The translations under genes and the position numbers were made by a program. A stretch of 34,282 bases of DNA from contig JAGCCX010000033.1 of the NCBI GenBank assembly GCA_017651465.1, positions 1-34,282 on the forward strand. The letters are read 5' to 3'. How positions within the stretch are numbered: position 1 is the first letter of the stretch; the number at the start of each line of letters is the position of its first letter. The notes under the pieces are model-generated. The model was not told the DNA's origin and did no database searches. It worked only from the letters and a program-made list of their open reading frames with translations. The stretch comes from Bacteroidales bacterium. GTDB lineage: Bacteria > Bacteroidota > Bacteroidia > Bacteroidales > UBA932. Shown piece by piece: positions 4,456 through 34,282 of this stretch.

Positions 4456-4596
4456 ATGGGTCAGACTGATCGTTTCGCATACGACGCCCCCTGCTGCCGG
4501 ACGCTTATGCTGGCACCCGGGCATATTGTGCTCAGCAGCGGCGGCACCCTTGACGGTGCTTCCACTAAAGATCTCAAAGATTATGAGGATCTTTAA
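4456..4596 (+). CDS. Small protein of 46 aa, YxxP...SGG type, upstream of a fimbrillin-like gene
   Basis: A short ORF starts at ATG 4456, 1 nt after the previous stop, and ends with TAA at 4594-4596, overlapping the next gene's start (4583) by 14 nt in another frame. The product contains YDAPCCRT, then IVLSSGG, and an acidic end (DLKDYEDL). It lines up without gaps over 26 residues with the small ORF at 19961 (YQEPSVRT ... MICVSGG), sharing Y, P, R-T, G and S-G-G. It has no clear signal peptide. The same position directly before a fimbrillin-like lipoprotein recurs at 19961 and 28484. Stop-start overlap at both ends suggests translational coupling. Short proteins with an N-terminal YxxP stretch are, as far as I recall, common but uncharacterised in Bacteroidales. 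A peptide substrate, regulator or secreted factor are all possible. Confidence 0.6.
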   Translation: MGQTDRFAYDAPCCRTLMLAPGHIVLSSGGTLDGASTKDLKDYEDL

Positions 4597-6223
4597 GATT
4601 ATCGCACCCACCCTCCTGGTCCTTGTGTGCGCCTGCCAGCGGCAGGCGGCGCCGGAAAAGCCTGAGCTTGTGGAGCATACAATTTATGCTTCCCTCCCCT
4701 CCGACGGGCAGCCGGGCACCCGCACCGTGCTCGATCCCGCCAACGACAAGAAGATACTTTGGAGTAACGGTGAGTCTATTTCCGTTCTCTGCGAGGGGGG
4801 CAATTACAAATTCGACGGCGATAATACGCAGGAGTGTGCGTCAGCCAGTTTTACGGGCAACGGGCCGGCCGAACTGGGCAGCTATATAGCCTTGTACCCT
4901 TACAATGGGTCGGCGCGTGTGGATGGAGACTATGTATATACATCCCTCCCGGCAAGCCAGACCGGCAAGGCAGGCTCTTTTGCCGACGGATATCTTATCA
5001 CAGCCGACGATGCCACCGGAAACAACGTCTCATTCAACCATCTGTGCAGCGGCCTGCGCTTCCAGGTGGGCCGTGACGATGTTTCCGCTGTCAGCATCCG
5101 TGGCAACAAAGGCGAGAAGATAGCCGGTGATTTCCGCTTCAGTTTTACCGCTGCCGATACCCCTGCCGCGCAGGAGGGGACGGAGGAAATTGTAACCCTC
5201 AACGCGCCCGGCGGGCACTTTGAGACGGGCAAGTACTATTACATCGTCATTCTTCCCACCACTTTCCAGGCGGGCTTTACCTTGGCGGCCAACGCCGGCG
5301 GACAAGTAGGAGAACTTAGGTTCGATTCGGCCGTCACCTTCTCCTGCGGCGCTTTCAAGAACATCACCGGGCTGCTCGACGAACGTATGGACTGGCCTTC
5401 CGCCACATCCCAGGTATATTACGGCCCGCAGAACTCCTTCTGCATAAGGCCCGGGCAGACTATCACCTTTGACATCCAGCCCCGCAAGATTACCGCCTCC
5501 TGGCAGCGGAGCGGCATTTTGGCGCCGGGTAGTTCCGTGCCCGCCACAGGAGATGCTCAGGTGCTGTGGGGCAGTTCCGTCGCCTCTGCGGTGGTTACGG
5601 GCGACAATATCACCATAACTGCCTCCAACACCAGCGGCAGCAGCCTGGTGGCGGTCAAGAGCGGCAACAGAATACTGTGGTCGTACTTGATTTGGGTTAC
5701 GCCTTCGGCTCCGGCCGAGACAATCCTGCCCTCCGGGGCCGTAATGCAGGAAGAGCTGGGCGGCGGCACCCTGAGCTTCCAATGGGGCCGTAAAGACCCG
5801 CTGCAGGCAGGCGCTACAACGGTGAGCAACCAGGGCGACGACGGCCTGGCGTACAGCATCGCGCACCCCGACGAGTATATCCAAGGCATCGCGCCGACCA
5901 ACAACTGGTACACCGGATCCACCGACCACGCTGACAACGATCTGTGGGGCGGAGTCAGCGGCGTAAAGACCGTCTGGGATCCCTGCCCGCAAGGCTGGCG
6001 TATTCCCGCCGATGCTGACTTTGCCGACCTTATCGAACTCGACACCGCTTTTGGATTCAGGGAGGGCTATTATTACTCCTCCATCCCGCTCAAGACCGGA
6101 GATGTGAACAACAAGGCATCCTGCCTCTCCGTAGCATATTATCCTTCGGGTAATTACTATGAGTACGAGCTGACCGGGGACAACAGAAACGCAGCGAACT
6201 ATGTCCGCTGCGTCAAAGAGTAA
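4583..6223 (+). CDS. Fimbrillin-like lipoprotein with C-terminal FISUMP-like domain
   Basis: A 546-aa lipoprotein. ATG 4583 is chosen because it opens the signal peptide MRIFKIIAPTLLVLVCAC; upstream in-frame codons only overlap the small ORF. Residues about 30-270 form a fimbrillin-like (Mfa-like) module recognisable by GTRTVLD, then ILWSNGESISVL, then YIALYPY. The same motif set occurs in the proteins at 20126, 28615 and 32687. Residues about 435-546 look like the FISUMP-type domain found in Bacteroidota and Fibrobacter surface proteins, with VWDPCPQGWRIP near residue 462 and the closing NYVRCVKE. The middle (about 270-420) is beta-rich and unassigned. It is the last gene of the run from 965 and is convergent with 6242, leaving only 18 nt between stops. 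It is probably a surface or fimbria-related protein. Confidence 0.85.
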   Translation: MRIFKIIAPTLLVLVCACQRQAAPEKPELVEHTIYASLPSDGQPGTRTVLDPANDKKILWSNGESISVLCEGGNYKFDGDNTQECASASFTGNGPAELGSYIALYPYNGSARVDGDYVYTSLPASQTGKAGSFADGYLITADDATGNNVSFNHLCSGLRFQVGRDDVSAVSIRGNKGEKIAGDFRFSFTAADTPAAQEGTEEIVTLNAPGGHFETGKYYYIVILPTTFQAGFTLAANAGGQVGELRFDSAVTFSCGAFKNITGLLDERMDWPSATSQVYYGPQNSFCIRPGQTITFDIQPRKITASWQRSGILAPGSSVPATGDAQVLWGSSVASAVVTGDNITITASNTSGSSLVAVKSGNRILWSYLIWVTPSAPAETILPSGAVMQEELGGGTLSFQWGRKDPLQAGATTVSNQGDDGLAYSIAHPDEYIQGIAPTNNWYTGSTDHADNDLWGGVSGVKTVWDPCPQGWRIPADADFADLIELDTAFGFREGYYYSSIPLKTGDVNNKASCLSVAYYPSGNYYEYELTGDNRNAANYVRCVKE

Positions 6224-6798: not shown

Positions 6799-7659
6799 TT
6801 ATTTAAGAACTATATCCACATATACGGGTAGATGGTCGGAAGCCACCGTCACATCGCCGGTAGAGAAAACGGTAGCAATCCTGGCCTCTTTCAACTCTAT
6901 CCTGTCGGCGGCATTCTTGTACACCATTATGTAGTCGATGCACTTTGAAGGATTGCTGGCAGGATATGTAAAACCTTCGGGCGAGAGAATTGTCCAGTTC
7001 TTGCGCATATAGGCCAGAGTCTCGCTGGAGGGCAGGGCGTTAAAGTCACCGCAAAGTATAACGGGCTTGCGGGAGTTGGCGTAAGTCTTTTCGACCCAGG
7101 CTGTTATCTCTCCGGCCTGCACCAGCTGCGCCTCCTTGGACTTGTGGTCGAGGTGCGTGGAGCAGAATACGAAATCCTGGAACTCGCTCACCGCCAGCGC
7201 CCTGACCTCGGAGCCCCCGGCCTGGCTGAGCTTGAGGCGGAAGCGCCTGATTATGTTAAGCTTGGGGTCGGATGCGATGCCTATTCCGTACCAGCCTCCC
7301 TTGTAGTTCAGGGCAGGAGCGTAGGTATAGTCCCAGGAGCCCATCTCGCGCGCGAACGACTTAAGCTGGAACACTTGGTGACGGGTGTTGCAGCTGTCGA
7401 GCTCGTTCATCGAAAGGGCGCAGACTCCAAGTTCTTTCATCATCTCCACCACCATCAGGGTGGTGTTGGTCCCGCTCTTGCTGAACACTCCCACGTTGTA
7501 GGTGGCCAGCCTCAGTACGTCGGCCTCGGGCTCCTCCTTATCCGGAGTCTGGGGCGTCTGGGGCTCGCCGGTAGCGGCGGGCGGCGGGATTTGATACTCC
7601 GTGCCCTTATTGCAAGTGCCGGTAAGCAAACAGGCCAGAAGGATAATAAGCAACTTCAT
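6799..7659 (-). CDS. Endonuclease/exonuclease/phosphatase (EEP) family lipoprotein
   Basis: A 286-aa protein with a lipoprotein signal (MKLLIILLACLLTGTC, Cys16) and a Pro-rich linker to about residue 47. The rest is a complete EEP fold with all the usual catalytic signatures: ATYNVG (metal-site Asn), NELD (metal-binding Glu), STHLDH, GDFNALPSS, IDYIMV and a closing ASDHLPVYVDI with the catalytic His. The family cleaves phosphodiester or phosphoester bonds in nucleic acids, sphingomyelin or inositol phosphates. Membrane anchoring suggests an extracytoplasmic substrate, which cannot be specified. A -7 box lies at 7679-7686 on the minus strand. It is the first gene of a two-gene operon with the barrel protein at 6242. 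Confidence 0.9.
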   Translation of the reverse strand: MKLLIILLACLLTGTCNKGTEYQIPPPAATGEPQTPQTPDKEEPEADVLRLATYNVGVFSKSGTNTTLMVVEMMKELGVCALSMNELDSCNTRHQVFQLKSFAREMGSWDYTYAPALNYKGGWYGIGIASDPKLNIIRRFRLKLSQAGGSEVRALAVSEFQDFVFCSTHLDHKSKEAQLVQAGEITAWVEKTYANSRKPVILCGDFNALPSSETLAYMRKNWTILSPEGFTYPASNPSKCIDYIMVYKNAADRIELKEARIATVFSTGDVTVASDHLPVYVDIVLK

Positions 7660-18508: not shown

Positions 18509-18561
18509 TTAATCCGACGCCACTCTTTTAATCTGAAACCTCTCTTTAATCCGACGCCACT
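18509..18561. repeat. 16-bp direct repeat duplicating the 3' end of a gene
   Basis: TTAATCCGACGCCACT occurs exactly at 18509-18524 and 18546-18561, 37 bp apart. The right copy is the stop codon and last codons of the NAGPA-type gene (minus strand). The left copy sits just downstream in the untranslated region. A third, weaker TTAATC lies between them. Confidence 0.85.
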
Positions 18562-19571
18562 ATTGCCAGCCCGGGGCCGATAGCCCGCTCGGTACCATCC
18601 GAAGGCATATTCTTGATCAGGAACTTGGCATTGGTCCCATAGCCTCCGCTCGAAGTATCCCTGACAATAAAGGTCGAAGAACCCCCGCCGTCGATATTGA
18701 TGGAGTCAAAGCTTCCAAGGGCCTTCATAATCTTCTGCATATCAGGATAATCCATCCCCACGGCAAGCACGCTGTTGCGCCCGTCGAGCACCACCAGGAT
18801 CACTTTCTTGCCGTCTTCCTGCACGCCGAACATAGTCCTGGGATGCACCCCGGAAACACTGTCTGCCGTGATGGTCGAATACCCGCCGTTAACCACCAGG
18901 AACTGCCCGCCGCTGAAAGCCTCGCGTAACTTGGTAGCGGACTTGATTTGCGTATAATACGAACTGTTTGCTATGCGCACGGTCTCGTCTCCGTCCCAGT
19001 ACACAAAGCAGCGCGGCCTGGTGGTCTGCGAATTGAAAGTATCTTTGAGGCAGATGCCGTTGTGCCAGAAAATTCCCTGCGCCTGACCGGCCGTCGCCCC
19101 TGCATCGGTTATAAAAAAGTCGGTGTTGATGCCGCCTATCACCCTGCTGCCCTCGGCGTCGATACGGCGCAGCTGAGCGCTGAGTTTCTCTCTTCCGCCG
19201 GTAAAGCCGCTTGTGGCGCCGCCGGGCACCGTATTGGTCATACTCACGGTGGGGTCGGAAAGATCCACCTGCATCACGAACACCGCCTGGGGCTGGGATG
19301 CATAGTCGGTATAGCGAATCTCGGTCACATCGACGCTGCTATGGGGGCTATAATGGGTGCACGACTTGACCTTGCCGATGAGGCCCGCATCTTCAAATGC
19401 CGCCTGGACGTCGATGGGATATGACGGCTTTTCGGGCTCCGGCTCCGGTTCCGGTTCTTGCGGCTGCTCTTCCTTCTCCTGCGGCTTGGGCTCGGGTATC
19501 ACCGAAGGAGTACAGGATGCTATGGAAGCCGCCAGAGCGGCACAAACACAAAAGAAAAATACCCTTTTCAT
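18546..19571 (-). CDS. NAGPA-domain (phosphodiester glycosidase-like) lipoprotein
   Basis: A 341-aa protein. ATG 19571 opens the lipoprotein signal MKRVFFFCVCAALAASIASC (Cys20); the reading frame upstream is intergenic. A Pro/Glu linker (about residues 25-50, repeated PE pairs) is followed by a NAGPA domain (about 90-340), named after the human phosphodiester alpha-GlcNAcase. Signatures are IGGINTDFF, GIFWHNGICLK, RTMFGVQEDGKKVILVVLDGR and NIDGGGSSTF. The bacterial members are thought to hydrolyse sugar-phosphodiester or related linkages outside the cell, and the exact substrate is unknown. The gene appears monocistronic, with a terminator at 18453-18476. Its last codons are duplicated downstream. 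Confidence 0.9.
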   Translation of the reverse strand: MKRVFFFCVCAALAASIASCTPSVIPEPKPQEKEEQPQEPEPEPEPEKPSYPIDVQAAFEDAGLIGKVKSCTHYSPHSSVDVTEIRYTDYASQPQAVFVMQVDLSDPTVSMTNTVPGGATSGFTGGREKLSAQLRRIDAEGSRVIGGINTDFFITDAGATAGQAQGIFWHNGICLKDTFNSQTTRPRCFVYWDGDETVRIANSSYYTQIKSATKLREAFSGGQFLVVNGGYSTITADSVSGVHPRTMFGVQEDGKKVILVVLDGRNSVLAVGMDYPDMQKIMKALGSFDSINIDGGGSSTFIVRDTSSGGYGTNAKFLIKNMPSDGTERAIGPGLAIVASD

Positions 19572-19704
19572 TAGTTTGAGCGTAATTTTTATGCAAGATA
19601 CGACTTTTATGCTACACTCCGGTGCAAGATTTACTCTTTTTAGGTATTTACATAGTGAATATTGGTTTAGCGCCGCACCTTGACTATGCAAGTGCTTCAA
19701 AAAC

Positions 19705-19745
19705 AAAGAGTGACTGATGAACTACTATCAGCCACTCTTTTTTTA
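19705..19745 (+). terminator. Orphan intrinsic terminator in a divergent intergenic region
   Basis: Stem AAAGAGTG.CTGAT with ATCAG.CACTCTTT has one mismatch, an 8-nt loop, and a T run to 19745. The genes on both sides (18546-19571 minus, 19961 plus) are transcribed away from it, so neither ends here. It may close a short unannotated plus-strand transcript from the 19572-19704 stretch. A weak 31-codon ORF ends at 19683 in that stretch. Confidence 0.7.
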
Positions 19746-19891: not shown

Positions 19892-19929
19892 ACACGTGTT
19901 GCAATTAATAATTATTCTTTTTATTTTCG
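19892..19929 (+). promoter_or_regulatory. Promoter with palindromes for the 19961-20126 unit
   Basis: TTG at 19899-19901 and TATTTTCG at 19922-19929 (one mismatch to TAnnTTTG) are 20 nt apart. The perfect palindrome ACACGTGT (19892-19899) touches the -33 element, and AATAATTATT (19907-19916) lies in the spacer. Both could be operator sites, though AT-rich palindromes arise easily by chance. The rest of the AT-rich stretch 19746-19960 holds only a GCAAATT/AATTTGC inverted repeat (19804-19832). Confidence 0.5.
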
Positions 19930-19960: not shown

Positions 19961-20113
19961 ATGAAAAAGAACTATCAAGAGCCCTCGGTACGCACCTATT
20001 GTATAAGCGTCGGGGGCATGATTTGCGTTTCCGGAGGGAAACCAGGCGGCAACGGCCAGCCAGGGGCCCAATTCGACCCTGAAGAAGACATCTACGAAGG
20101 CGGTATTTTTTAG
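19961..20113 (+). CDS. Small protein of 50 aa, YxxP...SGG type
   Basis: The ORF opens MKKNYQEPSVRT, continues GGMICVSGGKPGGNGQ and ends in an acidic/aromatic tail (FDPEEDIYEGGIF). It shares Y-x-x-P, R-T and S-G-G at identical spacing with the small ORF at 4456. There is no hydrophobic signal segment. Gly and Cys in the middle could suit a modified peptide, but no modification enzyme is nearby. Its stop is 12 nt before the start of the large fimbrillin-like lipoprotein at 20126, and a recognisable promoter lies about 30 nt upstream, so the two form a clean two-gene unit. Proteins of this look are, as I recall, frequent and unannotated in Bacteroidales. The function is unknown. Confidence 0.75.
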   Translation: MKKNYQEPSVRTYCISVGGMICVSGGKPGGNGQPGAQFDPEEDIYEGGIF

Positions 20114-20125: not shown

Positions 20126-22621
20126 ATGAAACGTACTGTTTATTCTTTAGCAATCCTGGCCATAGCTGGCATTGCAGTTCTGTCCTGTTCAAAAGAACCA
20201 AAAATCGAGGACACTATCAAAGCGCCCCAGGGCATTACCGTCAAGGTAGTCTCGGCAGAGGGCACCACCAAAACCCACATCGTCGATGGAGACGTCCCTA
20301 CCGTAGAATGGTCTGCCGATGACAAAATCTACCTGTTTGAAGCAGTGGACGGCGAAGTAAAGGGCAAGGCCGAATCGGAAAGCGCCGTCATCAGCGATGG
20401 CCTGGCAGGCTTCAGCACTACCATAGACTGGGCGGCCGAGGGAAGTTCATACCAATATTCGGCGGTATACCCCTCCAATAGTATTATTTCCTATAGTGGT
20501 AATTATTATATTATAATACCGGAGGAGCAGGTCCTTAACGGAAACAACTTTTCGGTGGACTCCGATGTTCTCTTCTCAACGCCCCTCGACCATGGCGCCA
20601 GCCGCGTGGCCGACGGTGAGGAACTTATGTTCAGCTTCAGGCGCCTTGGCACTGTGGTCCGCCTCAACATAATTGGTATTGCAGAAGGCGAGACGATAAG
20701 CGAGATTAAGGTAGTTGCGCCCTGTAACATTGCAGGAGCAATCGTTTATGACCCCGTTACAAGCACGGTTGACCCTTCTAGCGCTTTTGAGGCTTATGGT
20801 TCAAACACCGTTTCGCTATATCCTGAAGACATAGTAGCCACAGGAAACGATGTGTTCTGGTTCAGGGTAATGGCCGAGAGCGACTGGGCCGTGGGGGACA
20901 AATTCTCCGTCCAGGTCAGCACCGACCAAAACGTTTACAAAAAAGAGGTTACCCTTCCGTCCGTTATCAAATTCCCCGACGGCGGCCTGACTAAGTTCGG
21001 TGTCAACCTCGCTTCCAGCGTAGTTCCTCCTATGGCAGTACCTTGCACTTGGGATTTTGAAGACGGAGCCGATGACTGGACATTCATTGATAATGATGGA
21101 GATGGCTTTAACTGGGAATTATTCGACACAGATGGAGGGAACCCCCATTCAGGGACTACCTATCTGACAAGCGCATCCTTTATCAATGATCTGGGCGCGC
21201 TTGAGCCCGACAACTGGGCGTTTACACCTCGTGTTCAACTTACTGAAGGCAATTACCTTAGCTTCTGGGTAAGAGCACAAGATCCCAGTTGGCAGGATGA
21301 GCATTATGCTGTTTATATTACCAAGGGCTCTCCTATGGGAGAAATGTCCATTTTGATTCCGGAAACCATATTCCCTCAAGGAAGCTTTGTGGAAATAGGA
21401 GATGACGGCTACTATCAGCATCACATTGTGCAGATTCCCGAAGAATTTGATAATGAAGTGGTTTGCATAGGCTTCCGTCACTTTAACTGCACAGATATGT
21501 ATATGCTTGATATAGACGATGTTTCTATTACGGAAGAGTATCCTTATCAAGCTCCCGAAGCCGATTATGCAGACTTCCTGGGCCAATGGACCACAGGATC
21601 AAGGGTCTTTACCATTGAGCAGAAGGTTGAAGGAGAAAGCTATACTATCAGCGGATTTACCGGACAAGAATATCCTGTAGAAGCCAAGTTTGAGGGTAAC
21701 ATTCTAGTTGTTTATGACCAAATTGTAAACACCAGCGGCAGCACAGAGATCGCCATTCAAGGCATACCCGATTTATATCTTCCTGATTACCCTAGCGAGG
21801 AGATCATTTTGTTCCGCGCAGTTTATGACGAAGAGGAGAATGCCTTGATAATTCAAACCGCGAACGAGTATTACATTTGGATAATCTATGAAAATAAGGA
21901 GTTTTATGATTATATCCTTTATTCAGCCATCCCTGAGAAACTGGTACCTTACGTTCCGGGGCCAGATGTCGAAGATCCGAATACCTATCTATTTAAAGAC
22001 GACTTTGAGAATGGCCTAGGAAACTGGACGCTTTTCGATGCTGACGGCGACGGTTATAACTGGCAATGGTATGCTTATGAAGATTATGCTCATTCAGGTG
22101 AATCCTTCTTATGGGGTTACTCTTATTCCAGCCCGAATTCCTACGATCCAGACAACTATGCGTTTACTAAGGGAATTACCCTAACTACTAACAATTATCT
22201 GTCATTTTGGGTGCGTGGCATAACGCCCTACTACCCCGATCATTATGGTGTTTTCATCTCTAGCACGGCTCCTACAGCAAACAATCTCGCAAACTGTGTA
22301 AAGCTGTTTGAAGGTGATGCCGACAACACGACTTATGAAAAAATAGAGATTTCTATTCCTTCCGAATATGATGGCCAGACTGTCTATATCGCCTTCCGTC
22401 ATTTCGATAGCTACGATATGTATTACGTGTTCATTGACGATGTGGCTGTGACTGAAGGACAACTCATTGAACCCTCCAGCTCTGCTGCTCCCGCCTATCT
22501 TGCCCGTCCCAAACAGGCGGCCGTTACAGTCAAGGGCAATTTGAAGAAAGTATCCGACTCCCGTGGTTCCACCCGTAACCGGATACCGGTAAAGACAGAT
22601 TTCACCACAACACGTCGATAG
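20126..22621 (+). CDS. Fimbrillin-like lipoprotein with two cleaved-adhesin domains
   Basis: An 831-aa lipoprotein (signal MKRTVYSLAILAIAGIAVLSC, Cys21). Residues about 35-295 are the fimbrillin-like module: TKTH, VEWSADDKIYLF, then YSAVYP. Two cleaved-adhesin domains of the gingipain/haemagglutinin type follow at about 306-468 and 620-777. Each has a DxDGDGxNW motif, a YLSFWVR strand, an (E/D)HY(A/G)V(Y/F)I strand and FRHFxxxDMYxxxIDDV, so they are an internal duplication. Between them (about 480-610) is an unassigned beta domain starting FLGQWTTGSRVFTIEQ. The last 50 residues are basic and Ser/Thr-rich, and I do not see a type IX sorting domain. It is translated behind a perfect SD and the 19961 small ORF. 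A surface adhesin binding host protein or glycan is likely from family knowledge. Confidence 0.88.
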   Translation: MKRTVYSLAILAIAGIAVLSCSKEPKIEDTIKAPQGITVKVVSAEGTTKTHIVDGDVPTVEWSADDKIYLFEAVDGEVKGKAESESAVISDGLAGFSTTIDWAAEGSSYQYSAVYPSNSIISYSGNYYIIIPEEQVLNGNNFSVDSDVLFSTPLDHGASRVADGEELMFSFRRLGTVVRLNIIGIAEGETISEIKVVAPCNIAGAIVYDPVTSTVDPSSAFEAYGSNTVSLYPEDIVATGNDVFWFRVMAESDWAVGDKFSVQVSTDQNVYKKEVTLPSVIKFPDGGLTKFGVNLASSVVPPMAVPCTWDFEDGADDWTFIDNDGDGFNWELFDTDGGNPHSGTTYLTSASFINDLGALEPDNWAFTPRVQLTEGNYLSFWVRAQDPSWQDEHYAVYITKGSPMGEMSILIPETIFPQGSFVEIGDDGYYQHHIVQIPEEFDNEVVCIGFRHFNCTDMYMLDIDDVSITEEYPYQAPEADYADFLGQWTTGSRVFTIEQKVEGESYTISGFTGQEYPVEAKFEGNILVVYDQIVNTSGSTEIAIQGIPDLYLPDYPSEEIILFRAVYDEEENALIIQTANEYYIWIIYENKEFYDYILYSAIPEKLVPYVPGPDVEDPNTYLFKDDFENGLGNWTLFDADGDGYNWQWYAYEDYAHSGESFLWGYSYSSPNSYDPDNYAFTKGITLTTNNYLSFWVRGITPYYPDHYGVFISSTAPTANNLANCVKLFEGDADNTTYEKIEISIPSEYDGQTVYIAFRHFDSYDMYYVFIDDVAVTEGQLIEPSSSAAPAYLARPKQAAVTVKGNLKKVSDSRGSTRNRIPVKTDFTTTRR

Positions 22622-28483: not shown

Positions 28484-28609
28484 ATGGCCTTAAAATATTG
28501 CCCGCCGGTCTTGGCCGAGGAGCAGATGCTCGAAGCTTACTCTCTGCTGGTTGCCAGCAATGAGGGCTACGAAATTGATCCTTTCGATCCTGAATTCACC
28601 ACACCGTAG
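28484..28609 (+). CDS. Small protein of 41 aa between pheS and the M64 lipoprotein
   Basis: ATG 28484 is 1 nt after the pheS stop. The ORF ends at TAG 28607-28609, 5 nt before the GTG of the next gene. The product begins MALKYCPP, has a hydrophobic YSLLVASNEG stretch, and ends IDPFDPEF. It keeps the Y-x-x-P start, a hydrophobic run ending in Ser 20 residues later, and an acidic end. It therefore resembles the small ORFs at 4456 and 19961, though clearly less closely than they resemble each other. Its place before a lipoprotein with the same N-terminal module supports a link. It might be a chance ORF, but the tight spacing on both sides argues for coding. Confidence 0.55.
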   Translation: MALKYCPPVLAEEQMLEAYSLLVASNEGYEIDPFDPEFTTP

Positions 28610-28614
28610 CCGCC

Positions 28615-30660
28615 GTGAAGAAGTATTTGTTTTTAGCAGTCCTGGCCGTTGCAGCAATGGCCTCCTGCACAAAAGAACTCGAACAAGCGGCTCCCAAAGA
28701 GTATCAGACCTTGGTTATCAGAGCCGGCTTCGAGGCCGAAGACACCCGCACATCGCTGGAGATGAACAGCGCCCAGACCCGGGCCGACGTGGTGTGGAAC
28801 AGCGGCGACGAGATACGGGTGCTGGCATCAAGAGGCGGAAATTCATATACTTACGCCAACTTTTCCACTACCGACGACGGGGTGAGCGTGGGGGAATTCT
28901 CCTGCCACTCCTGGAATCCGGTGAGCAACACCAAATACGCCGCCGTTTACCCGGCCGGCAAGATGAAAGGCTACTCCTACAGCACCACCGAGGGCTACAC
29001 CTTCGGACTTGTGGTACCGCCTGTGCAGACCGCAGTCAAGGGTGGCGTGGAGCGCGGACTCATACGCTCCTTTGCCAAAGTCGGGGACAGTATGGCCCCG
29101 GACATCAAGTTCAAACACGCCCTTGCCCTGCTGCGGTTCCGCCTGGGCGGGAGCGCTGCCGGAGCGGTAAAGAAGGTCAAGTTAGTAGCCAATGCCGTGA
29201 TTGCAGGAGACTGTATGATACATCTGCTCGACAACGGCGAGGTTAGCTACGAAACCGACCGCTGGTATCTTCCGCTGGAATACGGACAGGTAAACAGCGT
29301 CACCCTCCAGGGAAGCTTCGAGAGCGGGGAGGATTACTATATTGCAGCTCTCCCCTGCGTCTCCGACGGCTTTTCGCTTCTGTTCTATGATTCATCGGAC
29401 CGGATCATCGCCCGCTATTCCAACAAAGTGCTGCCTTTGCGCCGGGCACGGATTACCGATATCGGAACAGTAAACCTGAGCGGAAGTTTCGGAGCTCCCG
29501 ACCCCAACGTCATCAAGTATATGGAGAGCAACAGGGGCTCGAGGCCTGTGACCATTGCGGTAGTTGCCGAGGGGTTCAAGGCCTCCGAGCAGGATAAATT
29601 CGTCTCCCTCGCCAAGGCTGCCGTGGACTTGATGTTCAGCACGGAGCCCTTCAAGACGTACAAAGATTACTTCAACGTGTACATTATGAAGGCCGTCTCC
29701 AACGAGTCCGGCGCATCCATCACCAACGGCAACGGCACCGTAACCACCAAGAAGGACACTTATTTCGGAGCCCGCTGGGGCGCAAGTTCCTATGGGGATA
29801 TGGAATCCGATGTCGAGAAAGTCTGGGGGTTCGTGAGCGCCCGCTGCCCGGAGATCCAGAGCGGCCTGCTCACCATCGACGAAGTGCCGGTGGGTATGAT
29901 TATCAACGATAACCGCTATGGCGGAAGGTGCCATTTCACTTCAAGCGGACGATGCGTGGCGCACGCCCCCCACACATACGACGGCAATCCCATTTCGTGG
30001 TCGTTCCCGAATATCGTGGCAGATAACGACGTTGATCAGTCGGGCGCGCACTACACTACCCAGGCAGAATACGCCGAGGTCGGCCATAGCACAGGAGATT
30101 GGCGCAATTCCTTCCTGCACGAGTTCTGCGGCCACGGCTTCGGCCGTTTAGCCGATGAATACTGGAACGGTACTTCTTATTCAACCGGCACCTACATCAA
30201 TGGGCAAGACTGGGAGTTGCCAGTTCACCTCAACATTTCCGGCACCTACAACAATGTGCCCTGGCAGGAAGACTTGCTGAACAACCGGGACGCCCTGATT
30301 GCACGCGACGCCCGCTATTCGCGCATCGGCCGTTTCCAGGGTGCCGGCGAGATGATTCTGAACCGCTGGCGCAGCGAGAAAATCAGCTGCATGATAGATA
30401 ACCGCCAGTACTTCTCCGCCTGGCAGAGAGAGTTGATAGTCAAACGGATAATGAGCCTGGCGGGAGAGAGCTTCAGCTTGTCCGACTTCTTCAACCTCGA
30501 CGTTACCCTTGACCCTGTGCGCGACTCCGGCGGCTCCGGCGCTCCTGAGCCCGACGGCTGGAAGAGCGAAGCTTGTACCGAGAGCGGCCCGCTCGCCCCG
30601 CCTCTGCAGATAGATAAAGATGCCCACGGCATTCCCCAACCGGTTTGCCGTCAAATGTAA
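28615..30660 (+). CDS. Fimbrillin-like lipoprotein fused to M64 (IgA-peptidase-like) metallopeptidase
   Basis: A 681-aa protein starting at GTG 28615, which opens the lipoprotein signal (V/M)KKYLFLAVLAVAAMASC (Cys18). Residues about 20-285 are the fimbrillin-like module: DTRTSLE, VVWNSGDEIRVL, then YAAVYP. From about 295 it is a Bacteroidota-type M64 peptidase: TIAVVAEGFKASEQDKF, FKTYKDYFNVYIMKAVSNESG, then the metal site FLHEFCGHGFGRLADEY with His502. The site reads H-E-F-C-G-H, one residue longer than plain HExxH. The founding family member cleaves IgA, but most members have unknown targets. The C terminus is Gly/Pro-rich. It lies 5 nt after the small ORF, in the pheS run. A surface protease tethered through an adhesin-like module is the likely arrangement. 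Confidence 0.88.
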   Translation: MKKYLFLAVLAVAAMASCTKELEQAAPKEYQTLVIRAGFEAEDTRTSLEMNSAQTRADVVWNSGDEIRVLASRGGNSYTYANFSTTDDGVSVGEFSCHSWNPVSNTKYAAVYPAGKMKGYSYSTTEGYTFGLVVPPVQTAVKGGVERGLIRSFAKVGDSMAPDIKFKHALALLRFRLGGSAAGAVKKVKLVANAVIAGDCMIHLLDNGEVSYETDRWYLPLEYGQVNSVTLQGSFESGEDYYIAALPCVSDGFSLLFYDSSDRIIARYSNKVLPLRRARITDIGTVNLSGSFGAPDPNVIKYMESNRGSRPVTIAVVAEGFKASEQDKFVSLAKAAVDLMFSTEPFKTYKDYFNVYIMKAVSNESGASITNGNGTVTTKKDTYFGARWGASSYGDMESDVEKVWGFVSARCPEIQSGLLTIDEVPVGMIINDNRYGGRCHFTSSGRCVAHAPHTYDGNPISWSFPNIVADNDVDQSGAHYTTQAEYAEVGHSTGDWRNSFLHEFCGHGFGRLADEYWNGTSYSTGTYINGQDWELPVHLNISGTYNNVPWQEDLLNNRDALIARDARYSRIGRFQGAGEMILNRWRSEKISCMIDNRQYFSAWQRELIVKRIMSLAGESFSLSDFFNLDVTLDPVRDSGGSGAPEPDGWKSEACTESGPLAPPLQIDKDAHGIPQPVCRQM

Positions 30661-32686: not shown

Positions 32687-34282
32687 ATGAAAGCTCTTGC
32701 CAGATTTTGCTTCCTCTGCCTGCTGCCGCTTGTTTCCGCCTGTGTGGCTCTTCCTTCCGAGGGAGGCGCTCCCGGAGACGAGAGTATCCTGACCGCCATT
32801 CTTGAGGGCGGGGAGCTAACCAAGACCCATCTTACCGGTCCCGAAGAGGGCATATACTATCCCTACTGGTCGGGGGACGAACACATTGCCGTTTATTCCG
32901 ATAATTCAAGCGAGCCCTCCCGTTTTGTTCTCAAGTCCGGCCAAAACAGCCGTAAGGCCACTTTTGCCGGTGCCGCTTCCGGCAAAAACTACATTGCAAT
33001 ATATCCTTATGAAAACAGCGGGAAGAATAAAAAAGGAGCAGTATCTCTCACGCTTCCTGCCGAGCAGAATTACGCGTTGGATTCGTTTGGCGAAGGGGCT
33101 TTTCCTATGCTTGCTGTCAGTTCCAGCAATTCTTTGTCGTTCAAGAATTTGTGTGCAGTACTCAAGGTGTCTCTGACGGGCAGCTCCGCGGTACAAAGCA
33201 TTACCTTAATTGCAAACGACGAGGGTATGGCGGTAAGCGGGCCGGCCTCTGTGAGCACCTCGGCCCCGGAAGCGCCCGAGCTGGTAATGGAGAGCGGCGG
33301 CTCGCCGAAAGTTCTGCTCATAGTGCCCGGAGTTAAGCTCTCCGAACAAACAGCAAAGGACTTTTTTATAGTTGTGCCACCCGGAACCTACAAAGGGGGC
33401 ATCACCCTCAAGATCAAGACATCGGAAGGAACCGTCACACGCTCGACCGATACAGACCTGATGTTCAAGCGCTCCGAGCTGCGCGCCATTCCCTCGTTCG
33501 AGTGCAACGGAGCAGAAGTCGATCCGGAAGACTTGCCTGACAATACAATATGGTATAAAACAGAAAACGGGAAGCCGGTCGATATACGCACAAATGCTTT
33601 TGCTTCCCCCATAGTTTCCCATACATACAAAGACGGTCGCGGTGTAATTGTTCTCCGCGAAGGTATAAAGATTATTCCCGAAAAAGCCTTCTACGGTAAA
33701 CATGTTACAGAGGTTCTAGTTCCGTCATCCATAGAAATAATCGAAAGAGACGCCTTCGCATACAGCTCGCTGCAGTCATTCAAGGTGCCGGATAATCTTA
33801 AAAAGATAGACAGAGGTGCGTTTGCATATTGCCCCCATCTTTCAAAATTTACCGGGGCCCATACTTTCGACAACGGCAAGGCTATAGTACTTAACAATGA
33901 GATTGTTGCCTATATAGGTAACATCGGCTCCAAAATTGTAATCCCGGAAGGTGTTTACTCCATTGCTGCAACCAGCTTCAGATTTGACGAAAGCGTTGCC
34001 ACCCGGCTAAAGGAACTGACTTTGCCTGAAGGACTTATAAGTATTGCCAGCGACAATTTCTCAAGTTTGCCGAATCTGGAATACGTTTATCTGCCATCTA
34101 CATTCAGCATCACCTGGCAGGGAACGTTTTCGCATTGTCCCAACCTTAAACAGTTCCGCGGGCCGTGTCCGCAAATCTACGACAACGGCAAGCTGCTTAT
34201 GTTCAACGATGGACATGTAACCGATTTTGCCGGGGCCGGTATTACTGACTACGTTATGCCGGAAGGCGTTACCGCCATCGAG
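32687..34282 (+). CDS. Fimbrillin-like lipoprotein with BspA-type leucine-rich repeats (runs off the window)
   Basis: An open reading frame of 532 codons with no stop before the window ends. The signal is MKALARFCFLCLLPLVSAC (Cys19). Residues about 35-265 are the fimbrillin-like module: LTKTHLT, PYWSGDEHIAVY, then YIAIYPY. From about 310 onward are BspA/LRR_5-type repeats such as VTEVLVPSSIEIIERDAFAYSSLQSF, KVPDNLKKIDRGAFAYCPHLSKF and LKELTLPEGLISIASDNFSSLPNLEYV. Proteins with these repeats bind host matrix or other cells in oral and gut Bacteroidota. It begins 11 nt after the BACON-thioredoxin gene and closes the visible run from 27038. Confidence 0.9.
   Translation, partial: MKALARFCFLCLLPLVSACVALPSEGGAPGDESILTAILEGGELTKTHLTGPEEGIYYPYWSGDEHIAVYSDNSSEPSRFVLKSGQNSRKATFAGAASGKNYIAIYPYENSGKNKKGAVSLTLPAEQNYALDSFGEGAFPMLAVSSSNSLSFKNLCAVLKVSLTGSSAVQSITLIANDEGMAVSGPASVSTSAPEAPELVMESGGSPKVLLIVPGVKLSEQTAKDFFIVVPPGTYKGGITLKIKTSEGTVTRSTDTDLMFKRSELRAIPSFECNGAEVDPEDLPDNTIWYKTENGKPVDIRTNAFASPIVSHTYKDGRGVIVLREGIKIIPEKAFYGKHVTEVLVPSSIEIIERDAFAYSSLQSFKVPDNLKKIDRGAFAYCPHLSKFTGAHTFDNGKAIVLNNEIVAYIGNIGSKIVIPEGVYSIAATSFRFDESVATRLKELTLPEGLISIASDNFSSLPNLEYVYLPSTFSITWQGTFSHCPNLKQFRGPCPQIYDNGKLLMFNDGHVTDFAGAGITDYVMPEGVTAIE

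Follow-up and report, generated by a model that had tools for sequence, protein, structure and literature searches.

A 50-residue YxxP peptide encoded next to a surface lipoprotein in a Bacteroidales genome is a probable precursor of an LPP-like RiPP

Linear polyphosphorylated peptides (LPPs) are RiPPs whose clusters encode, in the passages of the 2026 report on which we draw (PMC13381572), a precursor, an HprK-like kinase, an RRE, an SpI-like protease, an MsbA-like exporter and an NTP transferase. They are described there as restricted to Bacillota, and their role as unknown. The leader motif is YxxPxVLxHQxIxFETxxS, and docking of YxxP has been demonstrated for the RREs of LPPs and of lasso peptides. 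LppA is cut after T-1 and carries its phosphate on S3, 18 residues away from Y-16, and the catalytic triad of LppS is S29/H68/D93. The same passages report paeninodin clusters that also contain an HprK-like kinase and an NTP transferase.

Three other kinds of system are near enough to be compared. Lasso peptides such as fusilassin and paeninodin combine a YxxP or WxxP leader motif with a PqqD-type RRE, as is found here. The GG-motif RiPPs and bacteroidetocins, as far as the part of PMC10352776 used here describes them, likewise have small Bacteroidales precursors, N-terminal leaders and ABC export; unlike them, the peptides of this work have no match in NCBIfam and the transporter of the source genome has no peptidase domain. 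The fimbrillin and Mfa-like (type V pilus) lipoproteins have an N-terminal domain related to that of the partner lipoproteins described below, not to the peptide. A search of the open-licence literature by titles and abstract openings, with passages of PMC7533575 and PMC12710340, found no report of such a system or peptide family in Bacteroidota.

The DNA analysed, called the window, is a stretch of 34,282 nucleotides (contig JAGCCX010000033.1) from a Bacteroidales genome, named G000 below. We propose, at a probability of roughly 0.8, that a 50-aa ORF in this window (Table 1) encodes an LPP-like precursor, from which a linear, phosphorylated RiPP is made in trans. This reading is adopted because YxxP and a near-invariant Ser fit a RiPP precursor, because the five LPP families are present, and because the peptides and the machinery co-occur. 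Set against the LPPs as those passages of PMC13381572 present them, all five core families are also in G000, and the precursors share an N-terminal YxxP, a conserved Ser (at a spacing of 19 residues here and 18 there) and a variable C-terminus. The hosts differ, being Bacillota there and Bacteroidales here, as do the numbers, with one to three precursors per cluster there and dozens per genome here. The Bacteroidales precursors are scattered and paired with genes of surface-type proteins, unlike the LPP clusters, which hold the precursor gene; the operon of genome G054 holds one too, whereas the operon region of G000 does not. The NTP transferase gene of G000 lies away from the operon, again unlike LPPs, and the Bacteroidales leader is without the HQ and FET of the LPP motif, only YxxP and the Ser being kept.

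Table 1. Features of the window and candidate maturation genes of the source genome
Feature	Position	Strand	Basis
Promoter-like pair, TTG (19899-19901) and TATTTTCG (19922-19929)	19899..19929	+	upstream of small ORF
Proposed LPP-like RiPP precursor, 50 aa (leader + core)	19961..20113	+	sequence, family profile, orthologues, dN/dS
YxxP motif, Tyr5 + Pro8, proposed RRE-docking site in leader	19973..19984	+	alignments A2, A5
Ile21-Cys22-Val23-Ser24, where cleavage is proposed, with Ser24 as putative phospho-acceptor	20021..20032	+	LppA analogy
Proposed core: Gly/Pro stretch, then acidic FDPEEDIYEGGIF tail	20033..20110	+	motifs kept in orthologues
Shine-Dalgarno-like AGGAGG overlapping small-ORF stop codon	20112..20117	+	sequence
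Partner lipoprotein, 831 aa, fimbrillin-like N-terminal domain + Cleaved_Adhesin/choice-of-anchor J	20126..22621	+	Pfam, NCBIfam, profile A3
Second family member, 46 aa, overlapping start of next lipoprotein gene	4456..4596	+	A1 match, E 3.0e-12
Lipoprotein partner of 4456 peptide, fimbrillin-like N-terminus	4583..6223	+	profile A3
Third family member, 41 aa, between pheS and lipoprotein	28484..28609	+	A1 match, E 1.9e-8
Lipoprotein partner of 28484 peptide, fimbrillin-like N-terminus, M64 peptidase domain	28615..30660	+	profile A3
HprK-like kinase	G000:C3 6056-6946		operon G000:C3:6056-9304
Signal-peptidase-like protease	G000:C3 within 6922-7401		adjoins RRE gene
PqqD-type RRE	G000:C3 7398-7667		PF05402, 5e-16
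MsbA-like ABC exporter, 544 aa	G000:C3 7670-9304		ABC_membrane + ABC_tran
NTP_transf_5 (PF14907), on a different contig from the operon	G000 C18:57320		1.2e-36

The product of the small ORF (P0001) is MKKNYQEPSVRTYCISVGGMICVSGGKPGGNGQPGAQFDPEEDIYEGGIF, and the ORF is a real gene of a large peptide family. As the original prediction had it, the ORF is present in the sequence with its stop codon overlapping the AGGAGG before the lipoprotein ATG, and it heads a two-gene unit: it is the first gene on its own strand, the preceding one (18546-19706, with a NAGPA domain) being on the opposite strand. The two genes may be co-transcribed. A pattern composed post hoc, with the family already known (YxxP...[hydrophobic pair][CAVLM]xS), matches exactly three ORFs in the window, against a mean of 0.03 in 100 dinucleotide shuffles, three of which gave a single match; therefore, the small ORFs are not a product of chance. 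The other two matching ORFs are themselves rows of profile A1, by which they are listed in Table 1.

The pair TTG/TATTTTCG upstream of the ORF is promoter-like and of the Bacteroidota type, and four of the eight orthologues (L269-L272) have a box TA[TA]TTTCG at a distance of 39-53 nt upstream. The predicted promoter of its own is plausible for this copy, but in the family a same-strand gene ends within 120 nt upstream of 44 small ORFs out of 69 (a scripted count over the members with sufficient upstream DNA). A promoter scan of 69 small ORFs gave a weak signal (mean best score 7.38, and 7.10 in shuffled sequence); high scores were obtained for 16% of them and for 2% of 42 operon-internal lipoprotein genes, and TANNTTTG precedes 20/69 and 6/42, respectively. 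The perfect Shine-Dalgarno sequence is likewise real at this locus and not a trait of the family: 12 of 71 lipoprotein genes have AGGAGG at most 20 nt from their start.

Searches of Pfam and NCBIfam returned no family for P0001, and NCBIfam none for 48 family members; two Pfam matches (0.02 and 0.07), each of a single member among the 48, and 20 PDB matches at E 0.4 and up were judged to be chance. In the AlphaFold2 (AF2) model of the 50-aa peptide, pLDDT was 83-85 for the first 20 residues and fell to 57-63 for the rest; the model contains no secondary structure, and the fold is therefore left unclaimed.

Profiles were required to find relatives, since the peptide as a single query found nothing in the named genomes and gave weak matches in a search of 61 genomes. 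From that search, ten of 31 loci, the query included, had a YxxP small ORF at the match, and these ten with the two other window ORFs formed the first profile (A1); as the seed loci were picked with YxxP, conservation of this motif is partly a choice. A1 matched 112 of the 151 genus genomes at E<=0.1, frequently with many matches apiece, which bears out the predicted small-protein family far outside the window. At E<=1, it had 19 matches in G000 and 27 in G032. A 48-row profile extended the matches to other families, with 14 of 295 genomes of the order matched at E<=0.01, three of which (G058, G401 and G046) were unlike family members on inspection. When a Prevotella-type peptide was used as the tblastn query against plasmids, nothing was matched.

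YxxP is conserved among the relatives, as predicted: its Tyr and Pro do not vary in alignments A2 and A5, for which this motif served in part to select the rows. SGG, put forward as the other signature, is dropped, the conserved pattern being [VIL][LI][CA]xS followed by a variable Gly position. Among 69 YxxP peptides, Leu, Ile or Val occupies Y+16 in 65 and Ser occupies Y+19 in 58. One of the 70 members (G000:C82) is a likely false positive; once it was removed, 69 remained, 68 of them with YxxP, and 67 of these 68 have Ser at Y+18, 19 or 20. By analogy with LppA (T-1|A1 Q2 S3), Ser24 is proposed as the phospho-acceptor and the residues around it as the cut region. The tail is acidic and aromatic across the family, with Trp among the last five residues in 56% of 70 peptides and in 9% of the partner lipoproteins, a set that includes sequences truncated at the edge of the fetched DNA.

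The 831-aa partner was predicted to be an adhesin-like lipoprotein, and the Cleaved_Adhesin and choice-of-anchor J domains were indeed found (PF07675, 2.2e-44; NF038128, 3.9e-42). The fimbrillin-like N-terminal profile A3, whose rows include this protein itself, matches the window at 20186 (E 1.1e-20). PF13149 was found in five of 28 partner lipoproteins at E<=1. At the end of the window (32687-34282), a further fimbrillin-like lipoprotein gene lies behind a same-strand gene, with no recognised small ORF. In the whole of G000, a 2.5-Mb MAG, 66 matches to this N-terminus were found, many in tandem.

The partner preference is complete among the genus members examined, with no scattered homologues. 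A same-strand fimbrillin-like lipoprotein gene is directly 3' of all 79 members examined, after 193 nt in one case; these comprise 43 from G000 and G032 (including two identical copies on two contigs), 28 that are the best matches of 28 other genomes, and eight more (L186-L192 and L197). Such lipoproteins would make up about 3% of genes on an assumed count of some 2100 genes in the genome. The neighbours were scored by eye from a lipobox and a TKT...W..GD.I motif, and the automatic profile agreed for 20 of the 28 single-best-match cases. In G000 and G032 (n=43), the gap between the two genes ranges from -59 to +22 nt, apart from the one of +193. Looking from the lipoproteins, 41 of the 66 in G000 have a small ORF directly 5' (40 if the one that looks false is left out), 22 are preceded by some other gene on the same strand and three have neither. 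Among the 54 of G032, 47 were examined (seven were not fetched), of which 30 have the small ORF and 17 follow a same-strand gene.

The pair is also kept between genomes. The 831-aa partner was matched in nine of 400 genus genomes at E<=1e-60, G000 among them, and an orthologous small ORF is directly 5' in seven of the eight others (partner identity 45-68%, some partial); in the eighth (G516) the match is restricted to the middle of the protein, and it was left out. The eight orthologues keep two core motifs, PGA (changed to PGG in a single orthologue) and one of the DI[FY]..GG type. The closest pair of orthologous peptides is under purifying selection (dN 0.05, dS 0.44, dN/dS about 0.11); in most of the remaining pairs, dS approaches or exceeds saturation. 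At the protein level, the two ends of the peptide are both conserved. In a mirror test, similarity of the cores correlated with that of the lipoproteins (r 0.22, reached by 0 of 500 permutations), with no correlation for leaders (r -0.09) or full peptides (r 0.03); co-duplication could be the source of the correlation.

The constant position 5' of the lipoprotein gene in all genus cases examined, together with the share of G000 lipoprotein genes that have the small ORF, would suit a cis-acting leader ORF, whose translation controls the lipoprotein gene by coupling, stalling or re-initiation and whose peptide has no later role. We consider this unlikely, mainly on account of genomes outside the genus. 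There, the lipoprotein follows the peptide in G363 (three cases), G263 (one), G358 (two), G205 (one) and G316 (one). In G395 (L179:1504-2613), a YxxP peptide continues in frame, stop-free, into a fimbrillin-like lipoprotein; this may be a natural fusion, or two starts may overlap. In G054, a family peptide is encoded 23 nt 3' of the gene for a 480-aa protein. In G261 and G443, only one of 19 peptide matches is followed by a fimbrillin-like lipoprotein, and 16 lie downstream of a protein with a tail like YNLAGQRVxxxxKGLYIVNGKKVxVK (by eye). Several peptide copies of G261 are followed by a terminator-like hairpin, also seen by eye. The search of named genomes gave 18 loci, three of them from MAG RGIG3218; the remaining 15, of which 12 are titled Prevotella or Prevotellaceae, all have a secreted-looking protein with such a tail 12-69 nt upstream of the peptide. 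At L288, L296, L282 and the 12 further named loci, the shared C-terminal tail resembles YNLxGQRVxxPTKGLYIVNGKKxxVK and is followed by the YxxP peptide. This tail is similar to a T9SS sorting tail, but the sorting-domain model TIGR04183 scored above its cut-off in none of six Prevotellaceae neighbours.

The proposed check, whether homologues always precede fimbrillin-like or adhesin lipoproteins, thus comes out positive for the genus members examined and negative for the Prevotellaceae-type genomes, where the peptide is mostly 3' of a secreted-looking protein. Since the side on which the neighbour lies is flipped, the small ORF is not only a 5' leader, and this is the main evidence against a purely cis role; the conservation of both peptide ends, the low dN/dS of the closest pair and the co-occurrence of machinery that fits the motif point the same way.

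The YxxP of the family led us to look for PqqD-type RREs. PF05402 was found in 127 of the 151 genus genomes, mostly with one match, and in G000 its gene stands in an operon with candidate kinase, protease and exporter genes (Table 1). Against the PDB, the RRE profile had a sole match at E<=0.01, the lasso RRE TfuB1 (6jx3, 1.1e-5); LppB, its counterpart in the LPP system, was not among the matches of a PDB copy that may not hold it. The kinase matched TIGR04352 (HprK_rel_A) in 17/17 cases at E<=0.1 (best 1.6e-9), with the G000 copy under the cut-off of that model, and PEPCK and ScmC models matched too; the AF2 model of the kinase (pLDDT 92.7) matches PEPCK structures first and HprK next. The predicted protease of G000 has the motifs GSSMSP...HRV...GDGN, and GxSMxP, HR and GD align with its relatives, much like the catalytic Ser-His-Asp of LppS. 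Peptidase_S24 was matched by relatives and not by the G000 copy, and the PDB gave no match below E 0.46. For the exporter, TIGR02203 (MsbA, 3.1e-67) was the second-best model, under its cut-off.

This gene set recurs. Profiles of these proteins placed all four genes together in five of nine genus regions fetched, with one to three in the others; among 20 short genus loci, a set with several cut ones, 14 hold all four. The kinase, protease, RRE and exporter genes also occur together in G261, G363, G263, G358, G205, G054 and G361, and only protease and RRE were seen in G395. NTP_transf_5 lies within the operon in G358, G205 and G054, and was found in 14 of the 20 genomes asked. The operon of G054 is headed by a peptide gene, a YxxP peptide of 40 residues (E 2e-5) being encoded 38 nt before the kinase; no precursor gene was found in the 17-kb operon region of G000. 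At two loci, L348 (G032) and L355 (G159), the RRE gene stands apart from the others, beside a murF-like gene by eye, and in G159 the kinase and NTP transferase matches are close together on a contig other than that of the RRE.

YxxP also marks lasso leaders, and a loose lasso rule would permit a ring at an acidic residue in 52 of 67 family members. A lasso-type precursor is nevertheless very improbable: given a cut near residues 21-24, P0001 has no Asp/Glu at core positions 7-9 and so no ring acceptor, and Pfam found neither a B2 peptidase nor a cyclase in the G000 operon and its four neighbouring genes. The same low standing is given to a double-glycine bacteriocin precursor, against which speak the absence of a C39 peptidase domain (Pfam) from the 544-aa exporter and of any GG-motif family in NCBIfam.

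In the 151 genus genomes, with peptide presence defined as a first-profile match at E<=0.1, 106 have both the peptide and kinase or RRE, six the peptide only, 27 the machinery only and 12 neither (p=1.2e-4); for the kinase alone the counts are 102/10/26/13 (p=6.4e-4) and for the RRE alone 101/11/26/13 (p=1.5e-3), p-values that overstate independence because the genomes are related. The association is weak in the 62 genomes at least 90% complete (41/1/16/4, p=0.034, for kinase or RRE; p=0.022 and 0.063 when two and three peptides are asked), two of the 151 having no listed completeness. The kinase taken by itself shows no significant association in this set (40/2/16/4; p=0.079, 0.099 and 0.22 at one, two and three peptides). 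Five genomes at least 90% complete have neither kinase nor RRE, and their peptide counts are 0, 0, 1, 0 and 0. Across the order the RRE discriminates little, as PqqD is present in 183 of 295 genomes, in 11 of the 14 with peptide matches and in nine of the 11 with convincing peptides.

Exceptions occur on both sides. No kinase or NTP_transf_5 was found in G032 despite its many peptide matches; of the PqqD matches there, one is a solitary gene and the other, the second of two, lies within a 492-aa frame. Peptides with neither kinase nor RRE were found in G100 (five peptides; 80% complete), G010 and G085 (three each), G007 (two), and G018 and G091 (one each). Two genomes with peptides, G443 (89% complete) and G316 (99%), gave no PqqD match at E<=0.001. 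Machinery without a match of the 48-row peptide profile was seen in G262 (four genes, more spread), G444 (four) and G289 (three).

These exceptions fit a reading in which the peptides are small, unmodified cytosolic partners or chaperones of surface proteins, with the RRE operon unrelated and YxxP coincidental. The pairing with surface-type proteins in two contexts agrees with that, as does the absence of any hydrophobic stretch resembling a signal peptide (hydropathy of the best 12-mer, median 1.14 for the peptides and 2.66 for lipoprotein N-termini). A coincidence of this kind would have to cover YxxP and Ser at nearly the LPP spacing, the co-occurrence with kinase and RRE, and the YxxP peptide at the head of the G054 operon, and we regard it as improbable. 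Several roles were first suggested for the small protein (peptide ligand, regulator or secreted factor), and the data speak most for a peptide that is processed and exported. Maturation in trans by an LPP-like operon, guided by an RRE, was not among the ideas first put forward.

For such an LPP-like precursor, the N-terminal half would be the leader, with Tyr5 and Pro8 docking in the stand-alone PqqD-type RRE. The RRE would hand the peptide to the HprK-like kinase, which would place a phosphate on the almost invariant Ser24, and also to the archaeal-type signal-peptidase-like protease, for a cut near Ile21-Cys22-Val23. The acidic core would then be exported by the MsbA-like ABC transporter. 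A single machine, the operon and the NTP transferase gene elsewhere, would serve some 20-40 scattered precursors. The pairing of each precursor gene with one for a surface-type lipoprotein makes it probable that the two products meet at the cell surface, where the peptide may act on the lipoprotein. We would give even odds to the wider proposal that one kinase, protease, RRE and exporter mature dozens of peptides from across the genome, each sharing an operon with its own surface lipoprotein (a secreted protein in Prevotellaceae) and serving, once mature, as a dedicated ligand, tag or cofactor of that protein; if true, this would be a new way of building or regulating bacterial surface proteins and the first likely biological role for LPP-type RiPPs.

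If the precursor reading is right, LPPs reach a second phylum, with a gene pairing that points to cell-surface proteins. The predicted chemistry would be a serine phosphate on a linear exported peptide. A numerous family with no Pfam or NCBIfam model, present in many Bacteroidales including rumen MAGs, would gain a maturation pathway, and there would be a reason for the small conserved ORF in so many surface lipoprotein operons.
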